Part shown: piece by piece, positions 22,169 to 37,052 of the stretch
Layout: every line of letters begins with the position of its first letter
Position numbering within the stretch: the first letter of the stretch is position 1
Assembly (NCBI RefSeq): GCF_000447295.1
Contig: NZ_KE650771.1
Location: 5,663,559-5,727,558 of the forward strand
Reading direction: 5' to 3'
Length of the DNA: 64,000 bases
Origin: Fischerella sp. PCC 9431
Lineage (GTDB): Bacteria; Cyanobacteriota; Cyanobacteriia; Cyanobacteriales; Nostocaceae
Position numbers and translations under genes: made by a program
The notes under the pieces: model-generated
Database searches by the model: none
What the model was told of the DNA's origin: nothing
The model's input: only the letters and a program-made list of their open reading frames with translations

Positions 22169-22366
22169 TTGCATAACTCAGAGAATGTTCAAGTAGGAGC
22201 CAAAGTATTAATTCTAGAACCGGCTTATGTTGCTGGCAAAACTGGAGTTGTTCGTTGTCCGGAACAACTGGCTGATGGTAGACTAAGCGATCGCTGGCTG
22301 ATCGAAGTCGATGCTGAAAATATTGTGGTGTCGTTGGCTCGCAATGAGTTTCAGGTAATTAACTAA
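22169..22366 (+). CDS. Small conserved-type protein, KOW-like
   Basis: 65 aa from a TTG (22169). It reads VQVGAKVLILEPAYVAGKTG and then VVRCPEQLADGRLSDRWLIE, a short beta-barrel-like segment reminiscent of a KOW/SH3 module. No membrane segment is present. Its stop TAA (22364-22366) overlaps the minus-strand stop TAG of the ATPase-GGDEF gene (22363-22365), so the two genes meet tail to tail on the tetranucleotide CTAA. The function is unknown. The amino-acid pattern and the HIP1-like site inside support a real gene; the start codon is less certain. Confidence 0.6.
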   Translation: MHNSENVQVGAKVLILEPAYVAGKTGVVRCPEQLADGRLSDRWLIEVDAENIVVSLARNEFQVIN

Positions 22367-24348
22367 CCTAAAACTACGCGATCGCGTCCTTTTCTTTTAG
22401 CTTGGTAAAGAGCTTTTTCTGCTGTGTTGACTAAAAATTCAGGTTCGCTTTCCTCTTCAGGAGTCATGCTAGCAACACCTACACTCACAGTTAAAACATT
22501 AGCAGGTAAACCCCCAATCCCAGGATATTCACAGGTAATTGCTAAAGCTTTGACTTGTTCGCGAATTTTTTCAGCAATGTATACAGCATTAACTGCGTCT
22601 ACATCGACCAAAATAGCAAATTCTTCTCCTCCATAACGAGCCAGCAATGATGAATGGTCTTCGTGTTCAATATTCGGATTGCGAGAATTTTCTGTACCTA
22701 AAGCTGTGCTGACATAGGAGAGATGATTATTTAACAACAAATTTTTCAGACTCTCACGGATCGTATGAGCAATTTGTTGTAAACAGATATCTCCGGTGCT
22801 ATTTCCATAGGTTTTATTATAAATTTTGAAATAATCAATATCAAATAAAATCATTGATAAGGGAGTACATTCGCGTATTGAACGTTGCCATTCAAGTTGC
22901 AAATAAGTATGAAAATAACGGCGGTTAGCTAACTGAGTTAATTCATCTAAACTTGAGAGAATACGTAATTGTTGGTTTTCTTTTTCTAATTCTGCCACAC
23001 GCCCACGGCTAGCACTATTAGCAATATTCAGTTTTTCTCGAAAATACATACGAAATAATTCACATGCTACACTAACGCGATCGCCTTCCAATTTCACAAG
23101 CCCAGTACTATATAATCTATATGCCAGCATTGGTTCTATTTGTAGAGGCTCCGTAGCTGTAACCACTTCACGAAATGCGTCTGCTAATTGTGTTTCCTGT
23201 TGCAAGATGAGCATGTACTGACTCAAATAGTCTCTATAAATTCCTGTATCTGTTGGTGCTTGTTGTAAGATCTGTTCTAAATTGTTTTCTAAGCCACCCT
23301 TACCGATAAGATGATATAATGCCAACCTGACTAAGTAAGGATGTCCCCCTACCATCGCCATTAATAGGTCAGTATTAGAGTTATCTGTCCACTCTAATCC
23401 ATGACACTGAGCTAAATTCTGCACTTGCTCTTTTGTAAATGGTGGTAGTCGCAGTGGTAAACCAATATTAAATGGAGATTGATTTACCTTCAAAGAGAGA
23501 AATATTTCCGTGGAATAAGCCATGACTATGCGAAGTTTTTGCAAAACACTCACTCGTTTTGCTTGTTCATACCACGAACGTAATAATGGCAAAAATTCTG
23601 AAGCAATTTCTGGATAGTCAAATACCCAATCCACCTCATCTAATACTAGGACAAGAGGAGTTTTTATTGACTGTAGCAAGTATGTCTGGACATACAGAGA
23701 ACAGCTGATTTTACTACCCATATCCTCATCCCAAAACTCATTGAGTCTTGGTTCTAGCTGTAACTCTCTACTAAGATTGGCGCAAAACCAGCGTAAAAAT
23801 TTATTAATATTGACAAATACTGCTTTATCTGCTTGTTGAAAGTCCAAGCTCACTGTTTTATAGCCTAGATTGGTTGCATGAGCTAAAATTCTTAAAATTA
23901 GGGAACTTTTACCCATTTTTTTTGGGGCTTTGATGCAGATAACACTTCCTGGTTCAGTAATTTCTGTATAAGCTAATTCCTCAATTGGTGGACGAGGAAT
24001 GTAAAATCTAGAATTGAGGGATACTGGTCCTGCGGGAAATTCTAAGGATACTGCTGTAGCAGCACGATGATATTCCCTGATTAACTGGTGCTGTGTTCTA
24101 CTGAGTTGGCGAGGTTCGAGAATCTGACGAAAGTTAGATTTGTTTATTGATTCTTTCCAAAAATCACTCATCAATTGCCATAAATTAGAAGCAACTTTCC
24201 TAACTCGCTCTTCTCCGTAGTGCGCCTCTAGTGCTATGTTATTGTACGTTTTTCCTTCCCAAGAAGAACGCAATATTAATTCTTGCAGCGATGTCAGTGC
24301 ATTAGGTAAGCTTGCTTTTAGTAGAAGTATTACTTCATCTATAGTCAT
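22363..24348 (-). CDS. AAA-like ATPase fused to GGDEF diguanylate cyclase
   Basis: 661 aa from an ATG. Residues 1-95 resemble the helix-turn-helix domain found at the N-terminus of cyanobacterial vWA/MoxR-associated and AAA-like proteins (ILRSSWEGKTYNNIALEAHY). Residues of about 110-440 are a STAND/AAA-type ATPase: Walker A APKKMGKSSL (K147), Walker B LVLVLDEVDWVF and a GHPYLVRLAL sensor region. A coiled coil (RVAELEKENQQLRIL) leads to a GGDEF domain with DELTQLANRRYFHTYL and an intact GGEEF active site (RYGGEEFAILVDVD), so c-di-GMP synthesis is plausible. ATP-gated assembly could control cyclase output; this is inference from the architecture. Confidence 0.88.
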   Translation of the reverse strand: MTIDEVILLLKASLPNALTSLQELILRSSWEGKTYNNIALEAHYGEERVRKVASNLWQLMSDFWKESINKSNFRQILEPRQLSRTQHQLIREYHRAATAVSLEFPAGPVSLNSRFYIPRPPIEELAYTEITEPGSVICIKAPKKMGKSSLILRILAHATNLGYKTVSLDFQQADKAVFVNINKFLRWFCANLSRELQLEPRLNEFWDEDMGSKISCSLYVQTYLLQSIKTPLVLVLDEVDWVFDYPEIASEFLPLLRSWYEQAKRVSVLQKLRIVMAYSTEIFLSLKVNQSPFNIGLPLRLPPFTKEQVQNLAQCHGLEWTDNSNTDLLMAMVGGHPYLVRLALYHLIGKGGLENNLEQILQQAPTDTGIYRDYLSQYMLILQQETQLADAFREVVTATEPLQIEPMLAYRLYSTGLVKLEGDRVSVACELFRMYFREKLNIANSASRGRVAELEKENQQLRILSSLDELTQLANRRYFHTYLQLEWQRSIRECTPLSMILFDIDYFKIYNKTYGNSTGDICLQQIAHTIRESLKNLLLNNHLSYVSTALGTENSRNPNIEHEDHSSLLARYGGEEFAILVDVDAVNAVYIAEKIREQVKALAITCEYPGIGGLPANVLTVSVGVASMTPEEESEPEFLVNTAEKALYQAKRKGRDRVVLG

Positions 24349-27037: not shown

Positions 27038-27134
27038 GTAAAATTGGTGCTTTATTGTAGAGACTGATCGTGGTAATTCTCTATAATTGATTAGGAAAAT
27101 ATCAGTAGTTAGTGGGTATTTTTTGTTTAAGTTT

Positions 27135-27590
27135 ATGGCAGCAGATTTTTTTCAATTTGAGGCGGATTTTGTTGATTCTCTACGTTGCATACCTATGCAG
27201 GTGCGTTATAAGCTCGACACTAGTGGGATCAAACTAAAATTATCAGATTGGAATCACATGACTCAATTAGAGCGTCAACATCTTGTTGAACTCCCTTGCA
27301 CCACAGAGTCAGAGATTAGAGTTTATCGCAGTTATATCCAAGAATTAATTTTAAAACGTAATGGTACGCCTGTAGCTGAATTACCGATTGAATCTCATCC
27401 AGCATGGATGGATGCTAATACTGTGCCAACAAGTGTAAGTGAAAAAGCTCAAGAAATAGGCGTCAATATCACTGTTACAGACTGGTCAAATCTCAACCAT
27501 TTACAGCGTTTTGCTCTCATTAAGCTGAGTCGTTCTGGTCATGAAAATCAAAATTTTTTACCAGCTTTGAGGGAATTTAGGTTGTTATAA
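27135..27590 (+). CDS. narM: Nitrate reductase-associated protein (NarM-like)
   Basis: 151 aa from the ATG at 27135; a TTG at 27087 would add a hydrophobic leader not seen in the family as I know it. It reads FFQFEADFVDSLRCIPMQVR, then LKLSDWNHMTQLERQHLVEL and WSNLNHLQRFALIKLSRSGH, a pattern I associate with the cyanobacterial nitrate reductase-associated protein. That protein is required for activity of the ferredoxin-dependent nitrate reductase NarB. Two similar halves (LSDWNHMTQLERQHLVELP and VTDWSNLNHLQRFALIKLS) suggest an internal duplication. No nitrate assimilation genes or clear NtcA site (GTA-N8-TAC) are next to it. Confidence 0.75.
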   Translation: MAADFFQFEADFVDSLRCIPMQVRYKLDTSGIKLKLSDWNHMTQLERQHLVELPCTTESEIRVYRSYIQELILKRNGTPVAELPIESHPAWMDANTVPTSVSEKAQEIGVNITVTDWSNLNHLQRFALIKLSRSGHENQNFLPALREFRLL

Positions 27591-27732
27591 AGTTTTTAGA
27601 ATTGCGAGCATACTAAGTCGGCAAGTTAAGTTAGTATTACTGAAGTTCAGCTTTTCATCAAAAGTGTTTAATAATACCAAGTGTCCAAAACATAAAGATA
27701 GTTTTTTATCATGCTAGCGAGGATATAAAAAT

Positions 27733-28335
27733 ATGCCTGCCAAGAAAATTTTAATGATTGTTGGAGACTATGTCGAAGACTATGAAGTTATGGTTCCCTT
27801 CCAAGCACTACAAATGGTTGGACATACTGTTCATGCAGTCTGTCCTGATAAAAAAGCGGGTGAAAAGGTACGAACTGCCGTTCACGACTTTGAGGGAGAC
27901 CAAACTTATAGTGAAAAACCAGGTCACAATTTTACTTTAAATGCCACTTTTGATGAAGTAAAAGCTGATACTTATGATGCTCTATTGATCCCTGGAGGAC
28001 GCGCACCTGAATATATTCGTTTGAACCAGAAAGTATTAGAAATTACTCGGCATTTTGCTCAAAAAAACAAACCCATTGCTGCTATTTGTCACGGTTTGCA
28101 ACTACTAGCAGCAGCAGATGTATTAGAAGGAAAGAGTTGTACTGCCTATCCTGCTTGTAAACCGGATGTAATTCGTGCAGGTGGAATTTATGTCGATCTT
28201 CCAGTGGATGAGGCAATAGTTGATGGTTATTTAGTAACTGCACCTGCTTGGCCCGCTCATCCTCGTTGGCTAGCGGAATTTCTGAAGGTACTTGGCACAA
28301 AGATTGAACATGCTGAGATTGCTAAAGTTGGTTAA
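27733..28335 (+). CDS. DJ-1/PfpI-family protein
   Basis: 200 aa from an ATG; GAGG lies about 11 nt upstream. The fold is class I glutamine amidotransferase-like: [20 protein letters not shown] at the N-terminus, [17 protein letters not shown], and the nucleophile elbow [16 protein letters not shown] with C119-H120. The acid residue is likely E15. Family members include the protease PfpI, the glyoxalase/deglycase YhbO and stress proteins; protein or small-molecule deglycation is the common claim but is debated. It is cytoplasmic and monocistronic. Confidence 0.88.
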
Positions 28336-28624: not shown

Positions 28625-30001
28625 ATGACAGGCAAAAACGCAAGACGAAATGCATTTCTGCGGCTAGTGTCTGGTAATGGGGCAGCCTATGGGTCTGATT
28701 TTCGCTATTCGCTGTTTCCCACAAAAGAATTAGTCATTGGACGCGACCCTAGCTGTCAAGTTGTCTTAGATGCCATGATGTACCGGATGGTATCTCGTCG
28801 TCATGCGGTGGTTCGTCCTCTTCCTCCCTCCCCAGATAACGAATTAAGTTGGGTAATTTGTGATTTAAACAGTGCTAATGGTACTTATCTCAATGGACAA
28901 CGCTTGCAGGGTTGTCAGCAATTGATGAGTGGCGATCGCATTACTCTTGGCTATGATGGGCCGGAATTGTTGTTTGAGTACGAATTTAACCACCAATCTA
29001 CTGTAATATCTTCTGTGGCCGAAGCCACATCGCTGCCCCCAGCTGGCTACCAAACACAAAACATACCAGATTCTTCGGTTAGCTTTACACAACTGTTTCC
29101 TATTATTTCTACTGGCAAAGATTTAACTCGTAAAGCTTACCTCATACCTGGTGTTCTCACGGTCGTTTTTGTAGTGTTGATGTTTGCTACGGTTGGTGAT
29201 CCCCAAGCAAATCAAGTAGTGGTCGGTACTTATATCGCTTTTGCTGCTTATTACTTTATTTACCAGTTGTGTGGCAAACGTAAGCCTTGGTGGGTGTTGA
29301 TGGCTTCAGGATTAACAACAATGTTAATCTTGCTGAGTCCTCTGACAGATTTTTTGATCTTCTTCTTCCGCGAAGTTCTCCCTGGTAGTCTGCCTACAAA
29401 TCCCCAGGAATCCGTTACTTTTACAGAATTACTGATCCGATACTTTTTTGGTGCTGGCTTGATGGAGGAATTACTCAAAGCTCTACCAGTACTAGGAGTT
29501 TATGCGATCGCCAGAGGTTTATCATCACCTTGGCGCGAACGTGTCGGTGTCTGGGAACCTCTTGATGGTATTCTTCTGGGAACTGCTTCTGCTGTAGGCT
29601 TTACTTTGTTAGAGACACTCGGTCAGTATGTACCACAAATCATTCAAAGCGTAACTTTCCAGTCAGGGGATGGTGCTGGTCAACTCGCTGGATTACAGTT
29701 GCTGATTCCCCGAATTTTGGGTTCTGTAGCCGGACATATGGCTTATAGTGGCTATCTGGGCTACTTTATCGGTTTAGCTGTTCTCAAACCTAGAAAAAGT
29801 TGGCAGATTTTGCTAGTCGGCTATTTAACTGCCGCAGGACTTCATGCTTTATGGAATGCTACAGGAACTATCAACGGTTTATTGTTAGTGGTTGTTGGTG
29901 TATTATCCTACGCTTTTTTGATGGCTGCTATTCTCAAAGCAAGGGCGCTATCACCAAATAGAGAGCAAAATTTCGCTACCCGCTTTCTTGGACCTAAGTA
30001 A
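28625..30001 (+). CDS. FHA domain fused to PrsW-type intramembrane protease
   Basis: 458 aa from an ATG. Residues of about 20-118 are an FHA phosphothreonine-binding domain with the key residues GR (39-40), SRRH (57-60) and NGTYLNGQRL. A linker leads to about eight membrane segments (from residue 172). The membrane part has the PrsW/CPBP-like signature: EELLK at 281-285 (LMEELLKALPV), FTLLET with E330, GHMAYSGYLGYFIG with H369, and LHALWNATG near the end. PrsW proteases cleave anti-sigma factors within the membrane. The fusion implies that binding a phosphorylated partner directs the protease. It converges on the 30.3-35.4 kb genes, which encode another FHA protein and a PP2C phosphatase. Confidence 0.85.
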   Translation: MTGKNARRNAFLRLVSGNGAAYGSDFRYSLFPTKELVIGRDPSCQVVLDAMMYRMVSRRHAVVRPLPPSPDNELSWVICDLNSANGTYLNGQRLQGCQQLMSGDRITLGYDGPELLFEYEFNHQSTVISSVAEATSLPPAGYQTQNIPDSSVSFTQLFPIISTGKDLTRKAYLIPGVLTVVFVVLMFATVGDPQANQVVVGTYIAFAAYYFIYQLCGKRKPWWVLMASGLTTMLILLSPLTDFLIFFFREVLPGSLPTNPQESVTFTELLIRYFFGAGLMEELLKALPVLGVYAIARGLSSPWRERVGVWEPLDGILLGTASAVGFTLLETLGQYVPQIIQSVTFQSGDGAGQLAGLQLLIPRILGSVAGHMAYSGYLGYFIGLAVLKPRKSWQILLVGYLTAAGLHALWNATGTINGLLLVVVGVLSYAFLMAAILKARALSPNREQNFATRFLGPK

Positions 30002-30318
30002 TGACTATTCTTCATCTCAATTGAATAATCCTTACAGTCCTACTTGGGGAGTTAGATATTTTCATTAAATAATTGTTAATTTATCTTGACACTTACCCTT
30101 GCTTTCTTCCAGAGGATTAAAAACAACGATAATTTTTTATTTCTTTAGGTAGATGACGCTTGTCTTGCAATTTGATATTGTCTGGATACAGTGGAAAGCC
30201 TAGATTTTGAGAAAAGGAAATAGAGCATTCCACGACCTTTGCAAGACGAGCGCCATTTAAATACAAAGCTACTTGCAAGCAAAATAATTGCAGTTGACTA
30301 TAAAAAGTTGGGTTTTTT
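30002..30318. other. Intergenic region between convergent genes
   Basis: 317 bp. A minus-strand ORF that partly overlaps the next gene in another frame has no protein-like pattern and is rejected. No hairpin terminator is obvious. Confidence 0.45.
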
Positions 30319-30963
30319 TTAGGCTTCACCCTGAAAGCTGTTGAGTTGTTGTAAAGCATAGTAAGCGATCGCCAAACTAACTCTTGCTTGTTCAATTTCC
30401 GACAGATTCGTCCATTCGTGTTCACTAACTTGATTTAAAACAGTTTCTGCGGTTTTTTGCGATTCGTTACTCCGCATGGCGTAAGCATAAGGACGAGCCA
30501 AAACCAATAAATCGTCAGATCCCCAACCGGGTAATACAGCCTGAACGCATTCTACCAGTTGATTTGCCATTGACTGTTGGGTAGTAAAAATATCAGCTGC
30601 TTTTTGAGCGATCGCTTTTAACCATTGTTTTGGTACATCTGTAGACAGACAACTTTGTAAACTTTCTTGAAGTTGAGCTATCATAATACTATCTGTATTA
30701 TGATTGTATGATGGCTCATAAGAAGTCCATAGCACTTCTAGTTGATTGTAAAAATCTTCAGAGCGTGTTGTGAGTTCTTCTTCCAATACATCTTGCAACA
30801 CAAAATGCTCTTCCAAGTGGTGAAAATATTCTTCTGATTGCTCATCACTCGGATTCCAAGGATAAGTACCATCTTCTGGTTGCAGTAGTGCTTGTAAAAA
30901 TTCCAGTTCTATTTGAGAAGGGATGGTTTGAAGATTTTCTAAACGGTTGATTTGCTTGTTCAT
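30319..30963 (-). CDS. Uncharacterised helical protein
   Basis: 214 aa from an ATG with a clean start. It is acidic and helix-rich in its first half (EYFHHLEEHFVLQDVLEEEL). A second half of about 100 residues includes LPGWGSDDLLVLARPYAYAM and ISEIEQAR-like helices ending AYYALQQLNSFQGEA. No membrane segment or signal peptide is present. I do not recognise the family. It lies downstream of the CHAT-FHA gene on the same strand, 335 bp away, so it may or may not be co-transcribed. It could be a partner or adaptor of the FHA/CHAT group. Confidence 0.65.
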   Translation of the reverse strand: MNKQINRLENLQTIPSQIELEFLQALLQPEDGTYPWNPSDEQSEEYFHHLEEHFVLQDVLEEELTTRSEDFYNQLEVLWTSYEPSYNHNTDSIMIAQLQESLQSCLSTDVPKQWLKAIAQKAADIFTTQQSMANQLVECVQAVLPGWGSDDLLVLARPYAYAMRSNESQKTAETVLNQVSEHEWTNLSEIEQARVSLAIAYYALQQLNSFQGEA

Positions 30964-31298
30964 TTTTCTATCGTCTCCCGATTATTTATTTTATGGTATT
31001 TACAGCTACACCTGCTTGGAACTAATTTCCGCACATCAAGTCTAATTATCCTGAGTTTTTCTCTAAGCTTTTTGCTGAACTTGGAAATAGAAAGCGAGGA
31101 CTGGAGTCCAGGTGCTAGCAGCAAAACAAGAATAATGAAGATTTAGGGATTTTACTCACTGATTTGTGAGTAATTACTCACAAAATTTCATTCACAAAAA
31201 ATGGTAAACTACATAACAAATAAACTGACTAGAAGAGTAAGATAAAACTCATCAAATCAGCTTTGTTAGCTTTAGTTTTTTCCAGTTGTACTTTTAAC
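30964..31298. other. Intergenic region, nothing recognised
   Basis: 335 bp between two minus-strand genes. A short plus-strand ORF in it (64 codons) is hydrophobic only by chance and has no start site. No strong hairpin is visible. Confidence 0.4.
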
Positions 31299-32885
31299 CT
31301 AAGAGTTTTCAATCGTAAACTCCCAAGGATGACTATTTCTACTACCGAACTTTAACAGCATTCCTGGTTCAAGCAAAACTTCCTGGTGGTGGATTTGTTG
31401 CCAGTCATTTTTAGTAGGTTTAGAAATCCAGGTTGTACCGTAGGTAGAGTTTTCTCTGAGGTAATAGGTTCGTACTGGATTAGCACCTGTGAAAGTATTT
31501 CGACACAAGATTTCTGCTTGACTCCTGGAAACAGATGGTTGTGGAATCACAATGTCATTATCTGTAGTACGACCGATGCGGGTAACTCCGGTTTTCAGTT
31601 TGTAAGTTATCCCAGCCGATCTCAAGGAAGCCATAGGTAGCAGTGAAGCCATACCAGGTATGGAAGTTTCTGGTAGTTCTGTATTACCCTCTTCGTAACT
31701 CCTAATTAGTTCGCCATCAAATTGTGGGTGTAAATAGAGAACAGGTAAAGTCCATGCTAGTTGATTAAATCTATAAACAGCCAATAAGTGTTGTCTAGCC
31801 TCTGCTACAGCATAATCGATTGGTTGTCGCTTTCGCAAAGCTTGGACAAAAGTATGAATAAAAGTCAGACTTTCTTCGTCAGCTATTTGGTCGCGCATTC
31901 CTAAAACCGCAGGTACGCCATTGCGAATCAGTACCTCTGCTAAACTGCTACAAGGTATTGCCTGACCTTTGACAGCAGCAGGTTGCGCTCCCCAGCAAGC
32001 ATTTAAAACTGCTAATTTCACTCCTGTATGGCTGAGTACTTGTGCCAATTCCATGCCATTGAGACGCATATCAGGACGCAAATGTAAATACCCCCCATCA
32101 GGACCTCGCGAACCATGACCTGCATAAAAAAAGATATTGTAATTTCTGGTTTCTAGTTCTTGAATCAACTGCTGTGGGGTTGGTTGCAGTAGTCTCTTCA
32201 CAATGCAGGGAGCATATCCCTGGGAATGACTTCCTACTACGGAGCCGTTAGAAAGGGTTTGCTCTAAAATATCAGCTTCTCTATCTAACTGGAGATGATT
32301 TTCATCTTCTCCCAGAACTAGCAGGATATTTAATGTTTGATCAGTTCGCAACCGCAGTAGTAGGGGTTCAACTTCATTAGTAGTACGACTAAATAAAATG
32401 TTTGGAGACAGTGACATTGCCGACTGACCAACTTCACGCTGCATAATTTCCCAAGGCAAAGCAGTTAAATTTGGGTCACGAATCTCTAGTCGAAAGCGCA
32501 AACGTGTATTCTGACCAGTAGCGATACCGCTACTGTATTCCAGACTGCCCAAGATTGGTCCATCGAATAACCAACGCCACAAGCTAATTCCCAAATATTG
32601 CATCAGACGACTAGTGTAACTTGTGATTTTACCAGAAGTTGGTGAAAGCAACTCATTAGGAAGTGGGTTTGATGCTGGGGGTATGGCTGTGGGGGAAATA
32701 TCTATACAACTGTCCGGAGCAAACATCTCTTGCCACTTTCGCCAAGCTTGAGTTAACTCTGCTGACCAGACACAATCGTGGATGTCACGGGCGCCAGGGT
32801 AGGGAGCTTCAAACACACAAATAGCAAAGTGATCGGGGCCAGCATTGACCAGACGCTTAACCGCCAAGTTCAGGGATGGATTCAT
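31299..32885 (-). CDS. CHAT (caspase-like) protease with C-terminal FHA domain
   Basis: 528 aa from the ATG at 32885 (MNPSLNLAVKRLVNAGPDHF); a TTG 9 nt earlier is less likely. Residues of about 120-390 are a CHAT domain, a caspase/separase-type cysteine protease. The catalytic dyad candidates are H257 (IFFYAGHGSRGPDGG) and C297 (LAVLNACWGAQPAAV). Residues of about 428-525 are an FHA domain (GVTRIGRTTDNDIVIPQPSV, then SRSQAEILCR) with the GR, SRS and N elements that contact phosphothreonine. It is cytoplasmic, with no membrane segment. It follows the PP2C gene by 165 bp on the same strand. The FHA domain probably docks the protease to phosphorylated targets that the phosphatase can reset. Confidence 0.88.
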   Translation of the reverse strand: MNPSLNLAVKRLVNAGPDHFAICVFEAPYPGARDIHDCVWSAELTQAWRKWQEMFAPDSCIDISPTAIPPASNPLPNELLSPTSGKITSYTSRLMQYLGISLWRWLFDGPILGSLEYSSGIATGQNTRLRFRLEIRDPNLTALPWEIMQREVGQSAMSLSPNILFSRTTNEVEPLLLRLRTDQTLNILLVLGEDENHLQLDREADILEQTLSNGSVVGSHSQGYAPCIVKRLLQPTPQQLIQELETRNYNIFFYAGHGSRGPDGGYLHLRPDMRLNGMELAQVLSHTGVKLAVLNACWGAQPAAVKGQAIPCSSLAEVLIRNGVPAVLGMRDQIADEESLTFIHTFVQALRKRQPIDYAVAEARQHLLAVYRFNQLAWTLPVLYLHPQFDGELIRSYEEGNTELPETSIPGMASLLPMASLRSAGITYKLKTGVTRIGRTTDNDIVIPQPSVSRSQAEILCRNTFTGANPVRTYYLRENSTYGTTWISKPTKNDWQQIHHQEVLLEPGMLLKFGSRNSHPWEFTIENS

Positions 32886-33050
32886 TACATACAAACATCA
32901 AAATCAAAAATTTTTAATCATACAACAACAAAAGACAAAAACAATTAACTTCTGTTGATTTTTCCTTTTAGCTTTTACCTGTATTATTTCAGGTTGATAC
33001 TAGTTTATCGAGTTTTTGACTCTTGAGTGTTAGCGATACAGATTAGCCTG

Positions 33051-35378
33051 TTATGGAGTTGAGCCTCCTTGATTTAAAGATGCAGGTGTGCGCTGAGGCT
33101 CTTGCTGACATTCGGCAATAACTTCTGGTGAGGATGTAGAGCTATCGTTCAATAATTTTTGATATTCGGATAATTTAATAGTATAGACTTTACCCTCTTT
33201 CACTACAGGTTTTGGTTTTCTGGTTATAGGAGTTAAGGGATCGGGTGGGTTTGTGGGTGGAGTGATATCCTCTCCAACAGAGCATATCCGCAACAAGATT
33301 GACTCATCTGGATTTTGCTCTTGTGTTGTGGTTACTTTACTCTTAATTATTTTCAAGACAGTACCAGCAGGTGCGATCGCTTGCTGTCGAGATGATGTAT
33401 TTGTGAATAACTCTAGATCAGTTGTGGTCTGAATAACATCAGGGCGATCGCTTGGCTGAGATGGTCCAACAGACGGCTTTAATGTCACAGAGGGAGTATT
33501 ATTATTAATTGTAGGAATTCGAGGCTCATTTTCTTCCTTACCAAAAATCCCTCCATTGAGCATCCATAAAGTCCCAAATAGACCAGCGCCTAGAACTAAT
33601 CCTATAATAATGACAAACTGTAGTGGGACAGAACTCGTTCGCTTACTGGGCTGTGTATCTGGAATGACTTGAGTTTTTCGAGAATAACCACCTTCTGTTC
33701 TCGATTGTAGGGTTTGAGGTAGTTGAGTATTACTGCTAAGAGAAATATCGGATATGTCGGGCAAAACTAATTGTGGTTTTGTCTGTGGTTCCGAGTACTT
33801 AAATTGATAGTGTACAAGGGCAATAGTGACATTATCATGTCCATTTTGAGTGTTAGCAATTTCTAGCAATCTTTCAACCACGTTTGCAATATCAGTTTTA
33901 CCCTGAATTAACGGTAAAATTTCTGTATCCCAATACTGTTCCACACGATCAAAATCACTCAGTCCATCGGAACACAGTAGAAAAATACAATCTTCGTCGA
34001 GAATAAAGCGTTCAGCAGAGGGATGCAAAGAAGTGCTAGGACTCATTCCTAAAGCTTGTACCAATGAACCAGAAGCACCTTGTTGTATTGCATCTCGGTA
34101 AATGGCATAACCGAGGCGTACCTCACGCGAAGCCACATCATCATCCAGGGTCACTTGATAACAACCATGACGTGTAATCCAGTAAGCACGACTATCACCA
34201 ACATGGGCAATATACATTTCATGAGCAACAGGTAAAGCCATTACCAAGGTTGTTCCCATGCGCTGACGTCCTTGGCGACTCTCGCTGTCGTTACGCTGGC
34301 TGATTTTGTCGTTAGCTGTTGCTGCTGCTTGCTGTAAATCTTCTAATAGCGCATTTGGATCAAGGTGATCGTAAGGAACTTTAGTGAGTTCCTCTACCTG
34401 CTGTTGAATAGTTTCAATTGCCAAATTTGAGGCAACATTACCACCCTCATGTCCACCGATTCCGTCGCAAACAATTGCCAAAGTGCTAGAGTTGGGCGGT
34501 TTACTGACTATACTACCACTGGGTGGATAACAGGCATCTTCGTTGCGTTGACGGCTTGGACCAGTGTCGCTGACTGTCGCAATTGTAATGGTGGGAGATT
34601 GAGAACTTCCTAATGTTGAGAGTCCTTTATCTAAAACTTTTACTAGTTGTTCAGCAGCATAAATTTTTTCTGTGAGCAGCGAGTGACAAATCTCTTTGAG
34701 GAATTCTGCGATCGCTGGTTTTGCTGTACTGATCAACTGCTGCCAAAATTCCCCTAACTGTGACAAACTCGGTACATAATCCTCTTCATAACGCAATTCC
34801 AACAGGCGTACTAACGAGCCTTCCACTCTTAATAATTGCGGACTGAGTAAGCTAGAGGCAACACCTTCACTTGCCAGAGGTTGCCACAACTGTCCTATCT
34901 GCCACAACCAATTCAGTTGGCGCATTGATGTAGCATCACGCCAGGCAGTGGTTAACTCACTACATAGTTTTACATCCAGCGAATTTGTACTATCTATAAT
35001 CTTGAGTGGGGGTTTTTCTAAAAGTAATATGTCTTGCCCTTGACTATCATCAGATGAAGAAATTACACCGTATACCTGTGGCACATGTAGGCGGTAAGGA
35101 ATTAATCTTAAATAAGGTCTAATCGATTGTAATTTTTCTGGATCTGGCGTTTGGGGTAAATAACCAGGTTTCGTATCTAAAAGAATATATTTATCTATAA
35201 CTAGATAGCGAGTCGCCAATATCTCTCCAGAATTACCCAAATTCATACCATCTGCCACAGCCCAGAGGAAGCGTTTGGGTAAAGGTGTAGAGCATCGCTG
35301 GCAGAAGTTGTGGGTTAGGGGGTTGGGAGATTGACAAAGTTCATTCGGGCAATACAGGTTAGCCGCATCATTTTCCAT
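33051..35378 (-). CDS. PP2C-type protein phosphatase with zinc ribbon and membrane anchor
   Basis: 775 aa from an ATG. A zinc ribbon comes first (C10, C15, C26, C29: YCPNELCQSPNP and NFCQRCSTPLP). A region of about 200 residues follows (RLIPYRLHVPQVYGV, WRDATSMRQLNWLWQIGQLW) that looks like a degenerate protein-kinase-like fold, with low confidence. The PP2C domain spans about residues 265-530 with metal-binding motifs: VSDTGPSRQRNEDA, IVCDGIGGHEGGNVAS, AHVGDSRAYW, LLCSDGLSDF and GHDNVTIAL. One membrane segment (about 590-612, PLQFVIIIGLVLGAGLFGTL) separates it from a proline/threonine-rich C-terminus. It removes phosphate from Ser/Thr. It is upstream of and likely co-transcribed with the CHAT-FHA gene. 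Confidence 0.88.
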   Translation of the reverse strand: MENDAANLYCPNELCQSPNPLTHNFCQRCSTPLPKRFLWAVADGMNLGNSGEILATRYLVIDKYILLDTKPGYLPQTPDPEKLQSIRPYLRLIPYRLHVPQVYGVISSSDDSQGQDILLLEKPPLKIIDSTNSLDVKLCSELTTAWRDATSMRQLNWLWQIGQLWQPLASEGVASSLLSPQLLRVEGSLVRLLELRYEEDYVPSLSQLGEFWQQLISTAKPAIAEFLKEICHSLLTEKIYAAEQLVKVLDKGLSTLGSSQSPTITIATVSDTGPSRQRNEDACYPPSGSIVSKPPNSSTLAIVCDGIGGHEGGNVASNLAIETIQQQVEELTKVPYDHLDPNALLEDLQQAAATANDKISQRNDSESRQGRQRMGTTLVMALPVAHEMYIAHVGDSRAYWITRHGCYQVTLDDDVASREVRLGYAIYRDAIQQGASGSLVQALGMSPSTSLHPSAERFILDEDCIFLLCSDGLSDFDRVEQYWDTEILPLIQGKTDIANVVERLLEIANTQNGHDNVTIALVHYQFKYSEPQTKPQLVLPDISDISLSSNTQLPQTLQSRTEGGYSRKTQVIPDTQPSKRTSSVPLQFVIIIGLVLGAGLFGTLWMLNGGIFGKEENEPRIPTINNNTPSVTLKPSVGPSQPSDRPDVIQTTTDLELFTNTSSRQQAIAPAGTVLKIIKSKVTTTQEQNPDESILLRICSVGEDITPPTNPPDPLTPITRKPKPVVKEGKVYTIKLSEYQKLLNDSSTSSPEVIAECQQEPQRTPASLNQGGSTP

Positions 35379-36292
35379 AGTTTTCCCACCGGTCAGCGAT
35401 TGGCAATTTCTTTATTAGTATTGGCGACGATATCTAGACCGCTCATATTTTTTATTTGAGATATCCAAAGTTTGGAACAATCATAAAATCTCGTGGTATC
35501 TGTGGAAACCCATCCCACCAACGATGATGGATCAATTAATAAGGACAAGTGCGAAGGTGCGCCCAAACAACAATGTTATAACTCTACACCACGCTTATTG
35601 TGTTGTAGGCTGCTCTGTCACCAGAGCTTCATAGAATTTACAACTTGTCATCTAACTGTAACGCCTTCACGACTACAACTACATTGTTTAGATTTATTAC
35701 CCCATAATGTAAAGAGAAAATCAGACTAGTCTTTACTTTTACTTTATAGGTAGAGAGGCATTCATAAACAAACTTAAAGAAGACAGCTACTAGCTAGTCT
35801 TCACTCGCTATTAGCAATTTGCTATAGCCAAGATGATATTAAGTTTATTACTTCGCCTACGACGTTAACTGCAAATTTAACATATTTACTCAGTTAAAGT
35901 GTAATTAAAGAGCATAATGAAAAAAAAATTCATCGCGCTGCTAATCCTGGTGAGCTAATTTCTGAAGAATCACAAAGCATGAAGGGGAAATCCAAACAAC
36001 TTGAGATGCTTATGACATTACAAAGGCTAGCCTCCAAGTGGCGATAGACTTTGTCATAGGTCAGTCCAAAGGTCAAAAAGCTTTACACCATATTAAAGGT
36101 GCCCAGGAAATTTCAGGACAATTGCAATTTTTCCAAGGAAGGAATCTGGTCTGGTGTTAGTCACGGGTTATTAATCAATAATTATTTATTCTTTATTTTC
36201 TGGTGAGAAGAATTTATCAATTAAGCAATATAAATGAGATTATACCTCTTCTAAAGAATCTTGATTTGAATTTGTAAATTAATAGTTAATAG
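35379..36292. other. Gene-poor decay region
   Basis: About 900 bp. A 78-codon plus-strand ORF at 35493-35729 has a Cys/His-rich composition typical of a chance frame. From about 36010 to 36161 a plus-strand frame reads AYDITKASLQVAIDFVIGQS and onward to LVWC-stop. It looks protein-like but has a stop just before it and no start codon, so it may be the tail of a lost gene. The remainder is AT-rich with no feature that I can support. Confidence 0.4.
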
Positions 36293-36616
36293 CTAATGAA
36301 GATTGAATAAATTTAAAGTTTTTTTTAAGCGACGGAGAATAAATTCGGTGTTGTCAGCTTGTCTGGGAATACGACCAGAACTATCGGCATAGTTATTATC
36401 ATTGACTACAAGCAGAGTTCTGCTATCTACAGGTAATACGCTCTCTATAGTCACAAAAGGGATAGTAAAGATACCTGCCTTGGTGATATTTCCTCCAATC
36501 TTCTTAGGGTCAGATATATTTAGCAAATCTACTAATAATTGTTTATCAACGAACCCTTGAGCATTGAAACTCTTTACTATTTTGGAGTTATATTTGACCC
36601 TCCCCTGGCTAAAGCC
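36293..36616 (-). pseudogene. C-terminal remnant of an esterase-like phytase-domain protein
   Basis: The frame is open from 36616 down to the stop at 36293 and reads SFNAQGFVDKQLLVDLLNIS, then IFTIPFVTIESVLPVDSRTL and LVVNDNNYADSSGRIPRQAD. This is the conserved end of the esterase-like-activity-of-phytase family (exported, beta-propeller-like). The first ATG (36526) is internal and the N-terminal several hundred residues are missing. The break falls near 36600, where a short inverted repeat begins (TCCCCTG at 36601 and CAGGGGA about 36644). I read it as a truncated pseudogene. Confidence 0.65.
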
Positions 36617-36692
36617 TTATGTGTACACCGTAGGGCTAAAGCACAGGGGATTCTAAGAGGATGTTCCGCAATGGGTTAAAACCACGTTGGCT

Positions 36693-37052
36693 CTATTGGT
36701 TGTCAGGAGCTACTTGGGGAAGTCCCATGCTGTAGTTAGTGACACGAGCGGAGAGATTGTAACTGATTTCGCCCTTTTGGAGAAGCGATCGCAGAAAATG
36801 CTCTAAGACAGACCCAATACGACGCAAGTTATAATCTGTTAGATCTGCGCCACTATATGCTTCTACTTGTTCATCAAACTTGTGATAAACCTTTCGCAGA
36901 GCATCTTCATTCCAATTAAATTCGTTGTCTGGGTCAACATCCAACGTCAAGACCTGATTGCTGGGAACTAGTTCGCCATCCCGGTCAATTTCTGCCGCAA
37001 AAATACGGATATGCCGGGTTGTGGACTTAAGCAGCATTGGGTTGTCGTCCAT
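36693..37052 (-). CDS. ndhM: NAD(P)H-quinone oxidoreductase subunit M
   Basis: 119 aa from an ATG. NdhM is a cyanobacteria/chloroplast-specific subunit of the NDH-1 complex, which receives electrons from ferredoxin for respiration and cyclic electron flow at the thylakoid membrane. The whole length matches: STTRHIRIFAAEIDRDGELV, LTLDVDPDNEFNWNEDAL, SGADLTDYNLRRIGSVLEHF and EISYNLSARVTNYSMGLPQV. It is soluble and lies in the hydrophilic arm. It is intact even though pseudogenes flank it on both sides. No other ndh genes are in the window. Confidence 0.95.
   Translation of the reverse strand: MDDNPMLLKSTTRHIRIFAAEIDRDGELVPSNQVLTLDVDPDNEFNWNEDALRKVYHKFDEQVEAYSGADLTDYNLRRIGSVLEHFLRSLLQKGEISYNLSARVTNYSMGLPQVAPDNQ

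Follow-up and report, generated by a model that had tools for sequence, protein, structure and literature searches.

The closest described relative of the locus reported here is the HetF-PatU3 pathway of Anabaena, in which, according to the available text of PMC12288457, HetF is a protease and PatU3 its target, and HetF can cleave PatU3; the two are known to control cell division and heterocyst formation, and PMC12288457 also describes a hetZ-patU5-patU3 cluster. HetF combines a CHAT domain with a transmembrane segment and tetratricopeptide repeats (TPRs), as laid out in a figure legend of PMC8406250, and fusions of an FHA domain to PrsW have already been recorded as likely signalling proteins in the accessible part of PMC3482391. 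Here we analyse a 64,000-nucleotide stretch of Fischerella sp. PCC 9431 (contig NZ_KE650771.1; hereafter, the window), part of a 7.17 Mb cyanobacterial genome, in which genes for a HetF-related protease bearing an FHA domain (CHAT-FHA), a small helical protein (X) and a membrane-anchored PP2C phosphatase follow one another, and a gene for an FHA-PrsW membrane protease faces X. On balance, rather than with confidence, we favour the interpretation that CHAT-FHA and X are a second, FHA-bearing protease-partner pair of the HetF-PatU kind, encoded beside a membrane PP2C; the pair has the appearance of a second, so far unstudied form of the HetF-PatU3 switch, tied to parts of phosphorylation signalling.

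A HetF-related protease and a distant PatU relative

CHAT-FHA is encoded on the minus strand at 31299-32885, with an in-frame TTG at 32894, and exceeds the curated Pfam cut-offs for CHAT (78.2 bits) and FHA (41.1 bits). The HetF-like CHAT cysteine protease occupies approximately residues 90-400 and the C-terminal FHA domain residues 435-514, and no membrane segment was predicted in the protein, which is 98% identical to a Fischerella muscicola protein and 97% identical to one from Pelatocladus. The best NCBIfam match is HetF at 163 bits, short of the equivalog cut-off of 1200, and the closest paralogue in the same genome is HetF (36% identity, E = 2e-42; 146 bits, the runner-up scoring 33 bits), itself a full NCBIfam HetF at 1411 bits. 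To place these features among relatives, loci were drawn from 242 genomes sampled across the class (neighbourhoods from 80 of the 116 genomes with CHAT-FHA; ‘class’ below) and from a named Nostocales set (the best 80 of 452 relatives; ‘Nostocales’ below). The catalytic H257 and C297 are kept in all 160 homologues from the two sets. In a tree of 34 CHAT rows, the CHAT-FHA rows cluster (Shimodaira-Hasegawa-like approximate likelihood ratio test 92, not starred), although long branches meet there and no rooting is drawn; the motif filter retained 9 of the 22 CHAT domains of the Fischerella genome (among them the window's and that of HetF) along with 8 of 16 HetF stretches.

X (30319-30963, minus strand) is a protein of 214 residues with no predicted membrane segment, a candidate substrate or partner of CHAT-FHA. 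It had been described in the original prediction as an unrecognised helical protein, which holds in that it scores below every curated Pfam and NCBIfam cut-off (each of the 25 Pfam families listed for 30 X homologues is matched by a single homologue, with E no better than 0.002) but not in that it can be recognised as a distant homologue of PatU. A profile built from the window and 29 of the 68 class loci with X gave one further, weak match in the Fischerella genome (E = 0.11), a 330-residue open reading frame (ORF) that starts inside the 3' end of the HetZ gene (NF037963, 619 bits, cut-off 550) and that we identify as PatU because it directly follows HetZ; at one locus (L244), the PatU open frame starts at about residue 72, the PatU3-like part. 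Comparison of the X profile with a 30-sequence PatU alignment by hhalign gave E = 3.8e-5, and E = 8.5e-6 in the opposite direction, against 0.0038 for the best of 60 column permutations and 0.2 for a reversed profile. When a PatU hidden Markov model (HMM) was run against 2,455 six-frame ORFs from 80 neighbourhoods, default filters returned 21 matches, every one of them X (best E = 7.6e-7), and with filters off the first 25 of 238 rows were all X; with the X HMM, PatU supplied the first 22 non-X matches and 29 of the first 31, at weak E values. On these profile comparisons X is a distant homologue of PatU/PatU3, over the helical region only.

Gene order, co-occurrence and the DNA upstream of X

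The minus strand carries ndhM, PP2C, CHAT-FHA and X in that order, and FHA-PrsW, on the plus strand, is convergent with X. The four ORFs and domains on which the original prediction was built were recovered by the ORF listing and Pfam, and its expectation that they stay neighbours in relatives was mostly borne out. Counting X as a neighbour when on the same strand as CHAT-FHA within 3.5 kb, and ndhM as a neighbour of PP2C when on the same strand within 3 kb, X lies beside CHAT-FHA at 68 of the 80 class loci, PP2C (likewise on the strand of CHAT-FHA) at 62, FHA-PrsW convergent with X at 42 and ndhM beside PP2C at 39; the corresponding Nostocales counts, also from 80 loci, are 79, 77, 73 and 72. 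Median gaps are 148 bases from CHAT-FHA to X and 116 or 166 from PP2C to CHAT-FHA, and near-zero gaps in some lineages suggest co-transcription there, overlaps being approximate as each start was set at the first possible codon. PP2C, CHAT-FHA and X form the more stable core.

Across the 242 genomes, CHAT-FHA (116 genomes, after exclusion of ten with HetF-only matches) and X (115) occur together in 114 of the 117 that have either; two have CHAT-FHA alone (G081 and G182, the gene being at a contig end in the latter), one has X alone (G037) and 125 have neither. Of the 114, 93 have the two genes side by side on the same strand: in the window's genome, at 68 of the 80 class loci and in 24 of the 35 other CHAT-FHA genomes, 2 of which lack X. 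HetF was found in 122 of the 242 (NF045509 at E = 1e-100; 12 exceed the curated cut-off): CHAT-FHA and HetF are both present in 112, CHAT-FHA alone in 4, HetF alone in 10 and neither in 116. PatU was found in 58 genomes of a 116-genome sample (assumed to be G000-G115), 49 of which also have CHAT-FHA. A small genome of the window's own family (G143) has no HetF match yet keeps CHAT-FHA, X and FHA-PrsW, so the CHAT-FHA/X pair does not depend on HetF.

FHA-PrsW is a looser associate of these three genes. At a threshold of E = 1e-15, at which some matches span the PrsW part alone, it was matched in 152 of the 242 genomes, 89 with CHAT-FHA and 63 without, and 27 CHAT-FHA genomes had no match; PP2C matches, paralogues included, were found in 202. 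FHA-PrsW also adjoins X with no CHAT-FHA beside them at L361, L362 and L115 and, by coordinates, in G237. These counts do not support a single four-part system.

Upstream of X lies a promoter-like element, RCGGAA-N16-TGTAG (31006-31032, minus strand), conserved 5' of X at 75 of 79 loci in the Nostocales set and 48 of 68 in the class set, with a spacer of 16 bases in 122 of these 123. It was absent from the 200 bases upstream of CHAT-FHA (80 + 80 loci), PP2C (77 + 62), FHA-PrsW (73 + 42) and ndhM (72 + 39). In 3.79 Mb of redundant DNA there are 166 copies, 132 at X starts and a further 32 upstream of X by position (in overlapping or further loci, the window included), leaving 2 elsewhere (L106 and L050). 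The fixed spacer length suggests a promoter; extracytoplasmic function (ECF)-type promoters have GGAAC and a spacer of 15-17 bases, a layout that the element may share, and a plain scan for sigma-70 promoter and terminator consensus gave no more matches than shuffled sequences. A regulated promoter dedicated to X is thus probable, also at loci where X comes closely behind CHAT-FHA. Control by NtcA was considered and set aside: GTAN8TAC occurs upstream of X at 60 of 79 Nostocales loci (3.2 expected) but at 6 of 68 class loci (2.1 expected), the occurrences within Nostocales do not count as independent, the site seems too near the start for the usual NtcA geometry, and the fixed-spacing element is preferred. 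Between CHAT-FHA and X, at 31163-31184, lies a perfect 22-base palindrome, TTTGTGAGTAATTACTCACAAA, which is unique within the window and which close relatives do not conserve.

Of the neighbouring genes, ndhM (36693-37052, minus strand, 5' of PP2C on the same strand; Pfam NdhM 175.5 bits) serves as a genomic anchor and is probably functionally outside the system. The 1.3 kb between PP2C and ndhM (35379-36692) contain no ORF of at least 90 residues and no Rfam match, and the length of this stretch differs widely across relatives. In many Nostocales loci narM and pfpI (27087-28335 in the window) lie ahead of FHA-PrsW, and at 22363-24348 an AAA_35 domain is fused to a GGDEF domain, matched in two separate stretches. 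An identity as a defence system was dropped, since PADLOC anti-phage models gave weak matches only, at 14-16 bits (best E = 0.0012 for PP2C, 0.0039 for CHAT-FHA and 0.004 for X), and no match for FHA-PrsW.

A proposed mechanism and its alternatives

The observed domains, catalytic residues, gene order, co-occurrence, X-PatU homology, closeness of CHAT-FHA to HetF and element upstream of X form the base from which we infer proteolysis of X, its cut site, control by phosphorylation and an involvement in division or differentiation. The likeness of X to PatU leads to a more specific mechanism than the one originally predicted, in which CHAT-FHA would have in X, mostly the product of an adjacent gene, a substrate or partner dedicated to it, in the way that HetF has PatU3. 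Most likely, CHAT-FHA would cut X, and the cutting would set the cell's stock of intact X, which, like PatU3, may act by binding other proteins, whether division or regulatory proteins. CHAT-type enzymes favour Arg, and the candidate cut site is Arg164, which 67 of 68 class and all 79 Nostocales X sequences share, with Ser or Gly as the next residue in 54 of those 67 and in all 79; hhalign aligns it with PatU Arg189, which is kept in 30 of 30 sequences with Ser next in 27. In the structure model of X, Arg164 closes a helix ahead of a three-residue loop (local predicted local distance difference test score (pLDDT) of about 69), so that cleavage might fall before a short inter-helix loop; Arg157 is conserved equally and is an alternative. 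As an FHA domain replaces the membrane segment and TPRs of HetF, the targeting or activity of CHAT-FHA would probably be set by docking of that domain onto a protein or phosphoprotein, and the adjacent membrane PP2C would undo the phosphorylation. FHA-PrsW, where present, would add a second protease that carries a phosphothreonine-reading domain, and its gene faces X.

Several observations weigh against this interpretation. The X-PatU match spans just 97-98 columns at hhalign probabilities of 71% and, in the opposite direction, 83%, the X profile recovers PatU weakly (best E = 2.5e-4), the C-terminal part of PatU is absent from X, and a fold search with the X model (pLDDT 71) was uninformative (best PDB E = 0.56). 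The arrangement differs too: PatU adjoins HetZ with HetF elsewhere, and X usually adjoins CHAT-FHA, far from HetZ in the Fischerella genome (hetZ-patU near C1:4.12 Mb, X at C1:5.69 Mb). X and CHAT-FHA do not adjoin in 21 of the 114 genomes with both genes, 12 of these among the 80 class loci and 9 among the remaining 35 genomes; in 18 of the 21 they are on different contigs, so that contig breaks could account for some; the lost adjacency weakens the claim of an operon, and joint retention despite it favours a functional link. The co-occurrence counts track the species tree and do not represent independent events. One genome (G037, locus L115) retains X, PP2C and FHA-PrsW with only an FHA remnant of CHAT-FHA (51-56 residues, 39-41% identity, E = 0.001 and 2.3e-9), and neither HetF nor PatU was detected in it; X can therefore outlast the protease. 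Finally, the FHA pocket of CHAT-FHA is incomplete, as detailed below.

An unlikely alternative, which survives best together with the one that follows, is that CHAT-FHA does not cut X but is bound and regulated by it, X being an adaptor, chaperone or inhibitor. This alternative would draw on the identical co-occurrence and homology data, and it suits a small, helical protein with no membrane segment that remains in G037 despite the loss of most of CHAT-FHA, but the nearest characterised pair, HetF-PatU3, consists of a protease and its substrate in the available text of PMC12288457, and the conserved Arg of X, mostly followed by Ser or Gly, opens a predicted inter-helix loop.

The originally predicted phosphothreonine-gated proteolysis, in which a distant kinase marks a target, both FHA domains recruit a soluble and a membrane protease to it, PP2C resets the mark and X is an accessory, fares similarly and is also doubtful. 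FHA domains read phosphothreonine through a pocket with Arg, Ser and Asn, PrsW proteases carry the motifs EExxK and FxxxE and two His, and PP2C phosphatases have metal-binding Asp residues. The enzymes are intact, with the predicted catalytic residues present in both CHAT and PrsW homologues. FHA-PrsW (28625-30001, plus strand; Pfam FHA 65.4 bits and PrsW 131.8 bits, over the curated cut-offs; 20.8 bits against the NCBIfam PrsW equivalog cut-off of 225) keeps E281, E282, K285, F326, E330, H371 and H407 in all 42 class and 73 Nostocales homologues and the pocket residues R40, S57 and N85 in 42 of 42 and in 72 of 73, with one gap, and with this full canonical pocket it should plausibly read phosphothreonine. 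In CHAT-FHA the pocket Ser is kept in 80 of 80 homologues in each set, but Arg is lost in 22 of 80 class homologues (kept in 58 there and in 80 of 80 Nostocales) and Asn is present in 1 of 80 and 0 of 80, respectively, which makes phosphothreonine gating of CHAT uncertain; any such reading is perhaps lineage-specific. The earlier prediction that the cluster holds no kinase agrees with a profile from 22 kinases of the genome, which found no Ser/Thr kinase in the window; kinase genes occur at 2 of 80 class and 1 of 80 Nostocales loci, and the genome has 58 Pkinase matches, 56 of which exceed the cut-off. A second FHA-PrsW gene, 59% identical, is divergent from a Ser/Thr kinase gene about 560 bases away (L347 4777-8795; C1:1390000-1400000 in the Fischerella genome), a possible kinase link for FHA-PrsW. 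The neighbourhood, the intact PP2C, the canonical FHA-PrsW pocket and this kinase supply are what phosphothreonine gating has in its favour, but the FHA domain of CHAT-FHA is short of the pocket Asn and in many homologues of the Arg, FHA-PrsW matches and CHAT-FHA frequently occur one without the other, and both the near-perfect tracking of X with CHAT-FHA and the likeness of X to PatU are left unexplained.

The phosphatase itself (33051-35378, minus strand; Pfam PP2C_2 50.3 bits, over the curated cut-off) comprises a zinc ribbon, a degenerate N-terminal domain, the PP2C domain and one transmembrane segment. The metal-binding D281, D305, D471 and D515 are present in 62 of 62 class homologues, with one gapped row among 77 Nostocales. 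The zinc ribbon and membrane anchor expected from the original prediction are both supported, the anchor by the single hydrophobic segment 581-609 and the ribbon, which scores under the Pfam cut-off, by conservation of Cys 10, 15, 26 and 29 (59, 59, 60 and 59 of 62 class homologues; 77 of 77 Nostocales). Residues 34-266 aligned with Ser/Thr kinases (22 of the 58 in the genome were used) in the expected register at E = 0.04, against 0.12 for the best of 40 permuted controls, which is no more than suggestive of a kinase-like origin; a model of this domain (pLDDT 59) gave no PDB match at E = 0.001.

Mere synteny around housekeeping genes such as ndhM and narM, with no functional link, is very improbable: these genes border the cluster at many Nostocales loci and matches to PP2C (202 of 242) and FHA-PrsW (152) are broader than CHAT-FHA (116), but CHAT-FHA and X are together in 114 of 117 genomes, 21 of them with the two no longer adjacent, and each is related to a member of one known pathway. 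Returning to the HetF-PatU-like pair, a wider version of it can be offered only as speculation that we would not bet on: a widespread second HetF-PatU circuit, in which X would be expressed from an alternative-sigma (ECF-like) promoter of its own and cut at the conserved Arg-Ser/Gly by a CHAT protease guided by its FHA domain, docking of this protease would be governed by Ser/Thr phosphorylation and PP2C, and the membrane protein FHA-PrsW would act as a second phospho-read protease, together giving irreversible control of division or cell fate that depends on phosphorylation.

Comparison with known systems

No title listed by searches of an open-licence library describes a CHAT-FHA/PatU-like pair, which is weak evidence of absence as most subscription papers lie outside that library. 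A HetF-related protease present in 116 of 242 sampled class genomes is here attached to phosphorylation-signalling domains, and with X as a ready candidate substrate it opens bacterial caspase-like signalling to simple co-expression tests and offers an initial way into an orphan protein family.

Within the Fischerella genome, the nearest parallel is provided by the DUF1822-CHAT pairs: the next three CHAT matches of CHAT-FHA are each preceded by a DUF1822 gene, and all three DUF1822 matches lie directly 5' of CHAT genes, so that there, too, a CHAT gene is paired with a neighbour. Unlike X, DUF1822 is not detectably homologous to PatU, nor is it to X; it was rejected as a relative when the PatU-DUF1822 E value went from 0.011 with 12 sequences to 0.094 with 32 (best of 40 nulls 0.053) and X against DUF1822 gave 0.062 with 32. 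At two of the three loci (L217, L218 and L219) an upstream ORF weakly matches sigma70-ECF (29.7 and 16.4 bits, below the cut-off), a layout that resembles HetZ-PatU.

The PrsW-RsiW-SigW system of Bacillus subtilis shares with the locus a PrsW-type intramembrane protease (in the accessible part of PMC3482391), and the fixed-spacing element of X could be ECF-type, but neither an ECF sigma gene nor an anti-sigma gene was identified next to FHA-PrsW. The FHA-PrsW fusions have the identical domain fusion, a likely signalling form of PrsW, with no mention of CHAT-FHA, PP2C or PatU-like neighbours in that part of PMC3482391. The B. subtilis system is one of anti-sigma proteolysis.

The HetF-PatU3 pathway, which in Anabaena also involves HetZ, remains the closest comparison. 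CHAT-FHA differs from HetF in having an FHA domain where HetF has a transmembrane segment and TPRs; X lacks the C-terminal part of PatU and lies far from HetZ in the Fischerella genome; and the CHAT-FHA locus has PP2C, and often FHA-PrsW, adjacent, with protease and partner usually side by side. Common to both are a CHAT cysteine protease of the HetF group, a small partner with a homologous helical region and an aligned conserved Arg, and a near-identical set of genomes (112 shared), making CHAT-FHA and X a second case of a CHAT protease and its partner kept together through evolution.

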